The position numbers and the translations under genes are program-made. Shown here piece after piece: positions 3,918-5,209 of a DNA stretch of 41,898 nt (the first letter of the stretch is position 1; each line of letters starts with the position of its first letter). The notes below the pieces were generated by a model. It did no database searches. It was given only the letters and a program-made list of their open reading frames with translations, and was not told the origin of the DNA. Source of the DNA: Chitinophagaceae bacterium. GTDB taxonomy: Bacteria > Bacteroidota > Bacteroidia > Chitinophagales > Chitinophagaceae. The stretch covers positions 1 to 41,898 of the forward strand of contig JACSRV010000108.1 of NCBI GenBank assembly GCA_014879545.1, in the 5' to 3' direction.

Positions 3918-4088
3918 AAAAGTGGTGTAGGTGTCAAAAATAGTGAAAATGATGAGCGTTGCGGGCGCGCCTTGTTATTAAAGTGATATTAGTGCTTACT
4001 CCTTCGCTACGTTTGGCTTTAGAATTCTGCTTCCCACTTTGAAATTTTTTCTTCTTTTCGTGTATTTTATCTAACTCGTTGATCCTCA

Positions 4089-4200
4089 ATTGACATGTGG
4101 GAAGTAATACTTCCTGCCACTTCCCAAAACTGCGCAAAAACTTCCCAGTTCTGCGCATCCCGAAGCGCTCGGGACAGGCCCACTGTGCAAAACTGCGCAT
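4089..4200. repeat. Short direct-repeat and palindrome cluster (AACTGCGCA-type repeats, GGAAGT-AAT-ACTTCC and TCCCGA-AGCGC-TCGGGA hairpins)
   Basis: AACTGCGCA at 4128-4136 and 4191-4199, TTCTGCGCA at 4149-4157; hairpins at 4100-4114 and 4158-4174. Confidence 0.7.
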
Positions 4201-4248
4201 GAGAGAGGTGGCATAAAATCGCCATATATGCATTTGCAACCCATTTTG

Positions 4249-4514
4249 TTCAATTGCAATTCAAGTTACACCCGTGCGGGAGAACAGGCAAAAGAAAGTT
4301 TTATGATATGGCATTTTTGGTAGTGTGATAGAAAAAAGTTGCTGTAAGAAAGGTCGTCTGGCTCAGACAAGGTAAAGACGTTCTGAGAACGGGTGGTTCG
4401 ACGGGGAGCTTCTAATCGCCGGACAGAATCCGACTACCGTACGTGCCGTAGGAACAATCTAGGGCAAACCGGCGTTACAAACGCCACACCGCAACATCCT
4501 CGTTGCAAACGAGG
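4249..4514. repeat. Hairpin-array repeat, copy A, with two additional downstream hairpins
   Basis: Shares TTCAAGTTACA, ACAGGCAAAAGAAAGTTTTATGATA, GAAAAAAGTTGC, CGGACAGAATCCG and TGCCGTAGGAACAA with copy B; contains CCCG-TG-CGGG, GTCTG-GCT-CAGAC, CGTTC-TGA-GAACG, TGCCGTAGG-AACAA-TCTAGGGCA, GGCGTT-ACA-AACGCC and CCTCGTT-GCA-AACGAGG. Confidence 0.85.
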
Positions 4515-4566
4515 ACGAGTGGGAAATGACAAACTACTGTTATATAAGTCGATTTGCTCCAATTTT

Positions 4567-4805
4567 CTACACTTCAATTCAAGTTACAATCATGATAGAA
4601 AACAGGCAAAAGAAAGTTTTATGATAGTGCGTTTTTGGTTGTATGAAAGAAAAAAGTTGCAGTCGGCAAGGTTGTCTGGCGCAGACAATGCGAAGCCGTT
4701 TTTTGAACGGTGCCCTGCGGAGCAAAGGGAAAACAGGGCACTTGTAATCACCGGACAGAATCCGGCTGCCATAGGTGCCGTAGGAACAACCTACGGCAAA
4801 CTGGA
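4567..4805. repeat. Hairpin-array repeat, copy B
   Basis: Consecutive stem-loops TTGTCTG-GCG-CAGACAA, CCGTT-n5-AACGG, GTGCCCTG-n16-CAGGGCAC, CCGGA-CAGAA-TCCGG, TGCCGTAGG-AACAA-CCTACGGCA; collinear with copy A. Confidence 0.85.
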
Positions 4806-4816
4806 ACAAACTATAT

Positions 4817-5209
4817 TTGAATGGTAATTTTGAAAATATGCTTAGTGAAAGACATAAATTACTGGAAAAGCTGTTAACTACAAATCACCTCAACGTTTCA
4901 GAACGACGCTGTCTTGACTCATCGCCTACCTTTTCTGAGTTATTGGAAGTCGCCGAGCGTTACTTTCAAAACGGTATTTTTTTGCCCGCGGTCATCATAA
5001 AGTGGGACGACAAGAAGGTATGTTATGAAGGATATTCACTGGAAAAAGTAGACCAGTCGTACATTTTACATTTTCAAATTGCCGGGGCCTCAATGAATTT
5101 GTATGCCAATGAAAAGGAATTATATAGCAATCTAAAAGATGCACTTCATGCCTTTTTATACAACGAACACCATTTCAATATTAACGGTATTCCAATTTTG
5201 GACAAATAA
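4817..5209 (+). CDS. Hypothetical protein (start may be the downstream ATG at 4838)
   Basis: 130-aa ORF with balanced composition and no competing overlapping ORF; no family recognised. Confidence 0.6.
   Translation: MNGNFENMLSERHKLLEKLLTTNHLNVSERRCLDSSPTFSELLEVAERYFQNGIFLPAVIIKWDDKKVCYEGYSLEKVDQSYILHFQIAGASMNLYANEKELYSNLKDALHAFLYNEHHFNINGIPILDK

Follow-up and report, generated by a model that had tools for sequence, protein, structure and literature searches.

Phage small terminases (TerS) form rings that bear outward-facing HTH domains, and in one published model, which has no supporting site data, DNA is wrapped around the ring as in a nucleosome (PMC9611059). The pac sites may lie in or beside terS itself, as in P22 and SPP1 (PMC9611059, PMC4737164), and the TerS proteins known from pac phages bind DNA weakly in vitro and with little sequence specificity (PMC4737164, PMC9611059). 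SaPIs provide their own TerS and redirect packaging (PMC8494744). Among dispersed repeats, the BrickBuilt MITE of Porphyromonas gingivalis (PMC4596501) combines a leader, an internal repeat array and a tail with IS5-like terminal inverted repeats and 23-nt tandem units.

Here we analyze a window of 41,898 nt, the whole stretch of DNA under study, from a Chitinophagaceae MAG (3.48 Mb, 250 contigs, 87.5% complete) whose closest named relative is Flavipsychrobacter. Two repeats in the window, A and B, are members of a single family of dispersed intergenic repeats, ~310 nt long, which we call m1. Like BrickBuilt, m1 is dispersed and intergenic in a member of the Bacteroidota and has a leader-array-tail layout, but it has neither the terminal inverted repeats nor the 23-nt units, and unlike BrickBuilt it has its ends in common with a gene for a TerS-like protein. 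As in P22 and SPP1, that gene encodes an HTH protein of the TerS kind with repeated candidate sites at its own gene, and its phage homologues stand directly before terL. Unlike terS of P22 and SPP1, it is multi-copy, chromosomal and away from terL, and the sites are helically phased and species-specific, most of them (those in m1) lying away from any terS gene. By analogy, a second TerS next to a packaging cluster of the host would follow the same logic as SaPI/PICI elements (PMC8494744), although here there is one gene per element, with no integrase, no repressor and no sign of packaging.

A and B belong to a dispersed repeat family

An initial annotation described A (4249-4471) and B (4567-4805) as collinear, diverged copies of a hairpin-array element, and they do align as direct repeats, with 78% identity over 152 nt and 83% over 72 nt (BLAST E ~1e-44). 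Their repeat status is borne out by 41 matches in the same genome with A as query and by copies in a sister MAG; most of the 41 matches extend over no more than the initial ~100 nt of the query, beyond which the sequence varies by copy. The limits given for A were wrong. Conservation among full copies begins ~220 nt upstream of the reported start, and alignment and profile place the element at ~4027-4341. The nhmmer profile match for A runs from 3999 to 4377 (profile positions 66-422, E 2e-85), and that for B, which covers the 3' third only, from 4516 to 4690 (profile 243-417, E 7e-38). The interval 4249-4805 contains the repeats as annotated, but the main feature, a 10/11-bp phased array, lies outside it. 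The locus reads as follows.

4027-4341, plus strand: copy A, a nearly full-length m1 repeat (nhmmer and family alignment)
4079-4089, no strand: palindrome TTGATCCTCAA, a variant of the family's TTGATNATCAA (from the sequence; the pairs are conserved in the family and also at TerS-like gene 3' ends)
4097-4104, minus strand: inverted array word GTGGGAAG (from the sequence and its position in the family)
4110-4199, plus strand: phased array of A, spacings 10/10/11/10/32/10 bp, with words at 4120, 4130, 4141, 4151 and 4193 and variants at 4110 and 4183
4158-4178, no strand: small hairpin insert TCCCGAAGCGCTCGGGACAGG that interrupts the array (related inserts occur in other copies)
4298-4334, plus strand: 3' core of A, GTTTTATGATATGGC...GATAGAAA, matching the 5' flank of the TerS-like gene, antisense to the gene
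4346-4472, plus strand: tail of A, with a CGTTC-TGA-GAACG module and a degenerate TGCCGTAGG..CCTACGGCA module (4444-4466)
4471-4524, no strand: double-hairpin REP (GGCGTTACAAACGCC / CCTCGTTGCAAACGAGG) between A and B, similar to units that flank a transposase gene on contig C39
4558-4663, plus strand: copy B, the 3' third of m1 with its core at 4616-4652 and 0 array words (nhmmer)
4664-4805, plus strand: tail of B, with a B-only hairpin (4710-4741) and a REP-like hairpin TGCCGTAGG-AACAA-CCTACGGCA (4777-4798)

Lacking the array, B is probably a dead fragment. The TGCCGTAGG-AACAA-CCTACGGCA hairpin of its tail occurs at 6 places in the genome, itself and A counted. Directly behind B lies a small ORF of 123 aa (4838-5209, plus strand) that is closely preceded by a Bacteroidota-type TATATTTG promoter box and has no Pfam match.

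In consensus order, m1 consists of TGCGCA, a T-rich stretch, often a second TGCGCA, ATTGATTATCAAT, GTGGGAAG, the array, TGAGAAGTG, a spacer ending in ATTCAAGTTAC and the core GTTTTATGATAGTGCG...TATGATAGAAA; a complete copy thus has a T-rich start between TGCGCA words, the TTGATNATCAA palindrome, a heptamer array, a spacer and a 37-nt 3' core. Three interchangeable heptamers make up the array: CTGCGCA (118), CTTCCCA (92) and CTTCTCA (58). They stand 10 or 11 bp apart in 153 of 192 heptamer spacings up to 45 bp, a count in which two overlapping profile matches of one locus (L058) are both included; such a spacing puts a word on each turn of the helix. A scan of 1.06 Mb gave 39 clusters with three or more words at 10/11 bp, 36 of them in m1, and no cluster at four control spacings. 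The array adjoins the TTGATNATCAA palindrome, and a like layout is found at the 3' end of TerS-like genes.

Copies of m1 are intergenic, except for small overlaps with called gene ends. Where neighbors could be called on both sides, their orientations were (-,-) for 14 copies, (+,+) for 9, (-,+) for 7 and (+,-) for 6; with genes in all orientations, we rejected a promoter, leader or terminator role. About 18 copies were found in ~0.97 Mb of the sister MAG. An exact 26-nt stretch of the core occurs on six contigs of one other genome, the Flavipsychrobacter sister MAG JAEUVY01, and an exact 22-nt stretch in no viral contig, and we set aside a phage origin of m1 itself on this ground. Allowing three mismatches, a 23-nt stretch occurs 36 times in the genome, with single matches in two of 149 other genomes of the family, a number not above that of a reversed control pattern.

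The copies within the genome share 64% mean identity, and the nearest tree neighbor is from the same species for 23 of 41. Nine of 11 comparable sites are common to the sister MAG, and at the other two the copy is absent there or a remnant. The low identity and the common sites indicate that most copies are older than the species split, which makes present mobility of m1 doubtful. The element encodes no transposase, and neither the family alignment nor the ends of elements in the related genome G010 show the terminal inverted repeats of a MITE; one end of m1 (TGCGCA-T-rich) is not the inverted copy of the other (GATAGAAA). The autonomous transposase partner of a MITE is missing too, the gene with common ends encoding a TerS-like protein. 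We found no feature in support of an integron attC or an IS200-type substrate. m1 fits none of the definitions tested, namely REP, MITE and structured RNA.

Two related repeats were seen in the same genome. A second m1 subfamily (L029, L036, L039) has CTCCCA words about 11 bp apart and another spacer, with the same 3' core. A CGTC-tagged repeat (CGTCATTGCGAGGAACAAAGCGAGGC...GAAGCAATCTCGC; L041, L015, L029, L058), common elsewhere in the genome, forms arrays whose spacers include m1 3' core copies, and resembles the CGTC super-family (PMC3733652).

Inverted repeats and RNA structure

The inverted repeats listed in the initial annotation can be read in the sequence, and the GTGCCCTG-n16-CAGGGCAC hairpin was found, as reported, in B only. 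The claim that pairing is kept while sequence changes breaks down at its leading example: CCCG-TG-CGGG (CCCGTGCGGG) in A against ATCATGAT at the same place in B is at chance level. Among 49 family copies the first register is perfect in A only and the second in B only, and mean pairing is 1.08 against 1.11 in a column-shuffle null (p=0.66). In alignment A2 (34 sequences), 33.8% of cells pair against 34.0% after shuffling, and neighboring registers do equally well. The palindrome coincidence between A and B is mostly chance. Just upstream, the family hairpin GTGGGAAG-n5-CTTCCCAC averages 5.16 pairs against a null of 5.09; in 11 of 32 copies it keeps at most two of its 8 pairs, with the second arm shifted or replaced, mostly by TGCGCA, and it arises only if the first array word is CTTCYCA. 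The TTGATNATCAA palindrome, unlike the other hairpins, is perfect in 22 of 32 copies. CGTTC-n3-GAACG and TGCCGTAGG-n5-CCTACGGCA, also offered as preserved pairings, are indeed found again in certain other copies, where they form tail modules of their own.

The reading of the element as a structured RNA, RNase P-like RNA included, is contradicted by several results: an Rfam search gave no match for the repeat, the RNAalifold consensus fold of the m1 3' third, the part covered by the fold and covariation tests, has an energy of -0.16 kcal/mol, pairing is at the shuffled level, and there is no orientation to genes. By the annotation's own terms, its element would fall if further copies and covariation were both lacking; the copies exist, and the covariation is absent. 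We also rejected a leader peptide (MIVRFW..) in the 3' core, in which codon changes, judged by eye, are not coding-like.

REP-like modules and RAYTs

The suggestion of a REP/BIME-like element holds for the inserted module at 4471-4524, the tails being REP-like as well, but fails for the ~310-nt body common to A and B, which has no RAYT of its own. On contig C39, five units similar to 4471-4524 flank a REP-associated tyrosine transposase (NF047646, 96.5 bits against a cut-off of 80), so that the same repeat both flanks a RAYT and occurs elsewhere, the pattern that marks a REP. This RAYT, with its NHIH, WQ and YVHNNP motifs, and the 4471-4524 module fit Bacteroidetes RAYT subclass 2.6 / group 5 (PMC6006769); subclass 2.6 RAYTs go with atypical REPs, a description confined to the inserted module, with A and B themselves falling outside it. 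Both tails look like further REP-like modules, and the gathering of such modules at the core end of m1 explains the mosaic.

m1 itself has no palindromic unit of the 20-40 nt expected of REP/BIME, as it lacks a palindromic core and its pairing is unconserved. No Y1 transposase gene flanked by m1 was found; the C39 RAYT is flanked by the other module, and an m1 copy is merely nearby. Nor is there evidence for a single-strand transposon relic, since the gene with m1's ends is TerS-like and not a Y1 transposase. Elsewhere, a second RAYT-like gene (L045 270-848, contig C16) is flanked by a different repeat, GGGTCTCC...GGGACCCGGCGGCACC, and a Y1 transposase lies on a contig (C153, L044) that may be MAG contamination. 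In the sister MAG, a serine-recombinase island (L095 2471-4108) stands beside tRNA-Arg(CCG), the same tRNA that forms the right-hand border of the window feature, and leaves no orthologous empty site to compare with the window.

m1 has both ends in common with a TerS-like gene

All four complete close TerS-like genes of the window's genome match the m1 profile twice, at positions 105-227 with their 3' end (E 1e-14 to 6e-19) and at positions 340-380 with their 5' flank (E 1e-7 to 1e-10); a fifth, truncated by the end of its contig, matches at 105-227. Both ends of m1 are therefore those of the gene; they keep the order and orientation of its 3' end and 5' flank, the gene being antisense to m1, and m1 looks like the gene's two ends minus the coding part. 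The spacer of m1 (profile 228-339) is matched by none of the present TerS-like genes, which counts against simple deletion of one of them. Two of the three word clusters found outside m1 fall within the gene's 3' coding part (L159 261-1196; L156 2099-2830). Repeated sites in or beside a terS gene, as expected of pac or cos, are present here.

The N-terminal ~145 residues of the protein match phrog_4151 'DNA binding protein' (E 2.6e-14). Pfam Terminase_5 scores 21.0 bits against a cut-off of 20.3, with weaker matches to several small-terminase families, and a homologue in Bacteroides phage p00 (3e-10) is annotated as TerS and stands directly before the TerL and portal genes. An AlphaFold model of moderate confidence (AF2 pLDDT 76, pTM 0.41) has an HTH followed by long helices, and Foldseek with this model gave no PDB match below E 0.6. 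The label TerS-like thus comes from sequence and phage gene order and not from the fold; by sequence, the gene family resembles phage small terminase. The dispersed copies stand alone and not beside terL.

TerS-like genes and their arrays across the genus

Each of the 12 other genomes that we examined from the genus has TerS-like homologues (2-15 matches), and none of 8 other genera of the order has any; in a wider draw of genomes, a few further genera belonging to the same family had them as multi-copy families. Both homologues in one genome (G012) precede a terL-like gene, and elsewhere most copies are alone. Exact 7-mer repeats in the last part of the gene and the 420 bp behind it peak at a spacing of 11 (43; next 17), with 0 at this spacing in the N-terminal coding part and upstream. 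Such repeats at 10/11 bp are present at 9 of 25 non-redundant loci against 1.4 expected from shuffles, although array words are not evident in every one of the 25 loci. The palindrome, with at most one mismatch, is found in 16 of 25 genes against 0.6 expected, and upstream of the genes in 0 of 22.

The phased words of relatives include TGCGCA/TGGGAAG, GTTACATTT, GTGATATTTTT, CGTACA, AGTGCAG and CCGGAAA, and are often species-specific. Because the words differ by species while spacing and palindrome stay constant, we conclude that the array is renewed. In G010, eleven copies of the gene, 97.6-100% identical over the first ~208 residues, the conserved part, lie at unrelated places and look recent; their homology stops at the last TGCGCAAAA word, with stop codons mostly beyond it. 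The TGCCGTAGG..CCTACGGCA module lies directly upstream of two of the G010 genes. In another genome (G007, L204-L208), TerS-like ORFs are 430-526 aa long, and their 3' coding part contains the palindrome with CCGGAAA words, two or three times in tandem.

A single terS-terL-portal cluster

TerS, TerL and portal genes are also present together in the window's own genome, on contig C235 (L236 3405-8685) beside ubiD. An apparent absence of TerL in a Pfam search (PF03237) was a false negative, as a protein query found it. The group is single-copy and genus-wide (L236; L237-L242). In some genomes it adds capsid, tail sheath and endolysin genes, which in G004 are interspersed with host genes, a DEAD-box helicase being one. 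At the canonical terS beside terL, neither array nor palindrome is present. Interleaved with host genes, the group may be a domesticated prophage or a gene transfer agent.

Origin and possible role of m1

We favor, at somewhat better than even probability, the reading of m1 as a gene-less derivative of a TerS-like element whose array is a TerS-binding, pac-like site. m1 would have arisen as a deletion derivative of a one-gene element, and the TerS-like HTH protein, as an oligomer, would touch the array once in each turn of the helix, as though the DNA wound around the protein. We infer this binding from the phasing, since a wrapped site would need a word on every helical turn; an array read in this way would be a pac-like site. 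The weak, little-specific DNA binding of known pac-phage TerS in vitro counts against it, as do the array-free canonical terS of this genus and the fragmented state of the MAG.

The numerous intergenic copies without orientation bias, the differences in presence at two of 11 sites and the eleven near-identical full elements at unrelated places in G010 would also suit an ordinary MITE-like or selfish repeat moved in trans, in which array and palindrome are transposase or replication signals and the TerS-like gene is a passenger. We consider this unlikely, though far from negligible: neither the family alignment nor the G010 ends show terminal inverted repeats, the element has no transposase, and words that differ by species around a constant palindrome fit a site and a protein diverging together better than they fit a passenger. 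That same G010 multiplication resembles the spread of an element rather than host architecture, and so weighs against the array being the site of a cellular DNA-organizing, partition or regulatory protein, with the TerS-like gene as a domesticated regulator. One word per helical turn with a conserved palindrome does resemble a nucleoprotein site, the copies are old and mostly kept in both species, and the gene family runs throughout the genus; but the copies lie in all orientations to genes, which argues against a common promoter role, and we regard this explanation as decidedly improbable. A structured RNA or REP/BIME hairpin element draws on the true REP between A and B and the conserved hairpins in the tails. 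For the body of A and B it is already largely refuted by the missing Rfam match, the shuffled-level pairing and negligible fold (-0.16 kcal/mol), the lack of gene orientation and of a Y1 transposase associated with the m1 ends, and we give it very little weight.

The orphan TerS proteins could, speculatively, serve as alternative adaptors for the genus's single terS-terL-portal cluster, like the satellite-encoded TerS proteins that serve helper phages in this way, and by analogy it is possible that they redirect packaging, as in SaPIs. It is a rather improbable extension that a genus-wide class of one-gene elements encodes orphan TerS proteins, each recognizing its own helically phased arrays, and that these elements and their gene-less derivatives, copy A among them, seed packaging-start sites on the chromosome. 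From such sites the domesticated cluster, which in some species includes capsid and tail sheath, would package chosen chromosomal segments in the manner of a GTA or a minimal satellite.

The full-length partner of m1, a dispersed bacterial repeat, codes for a protein of the packaging type rather than for a recognizable transposase, and the finding points to a phage packaging cluster retained throughout the genus. The way in which TerS recognizes a particular DNA sequence has yet to be settled. If our reading is correct, the arrays, present by the dozen in a genome and re-spelled in each species beside a matching TerS-like gene, would constitute a natural data set on TerS recognition.
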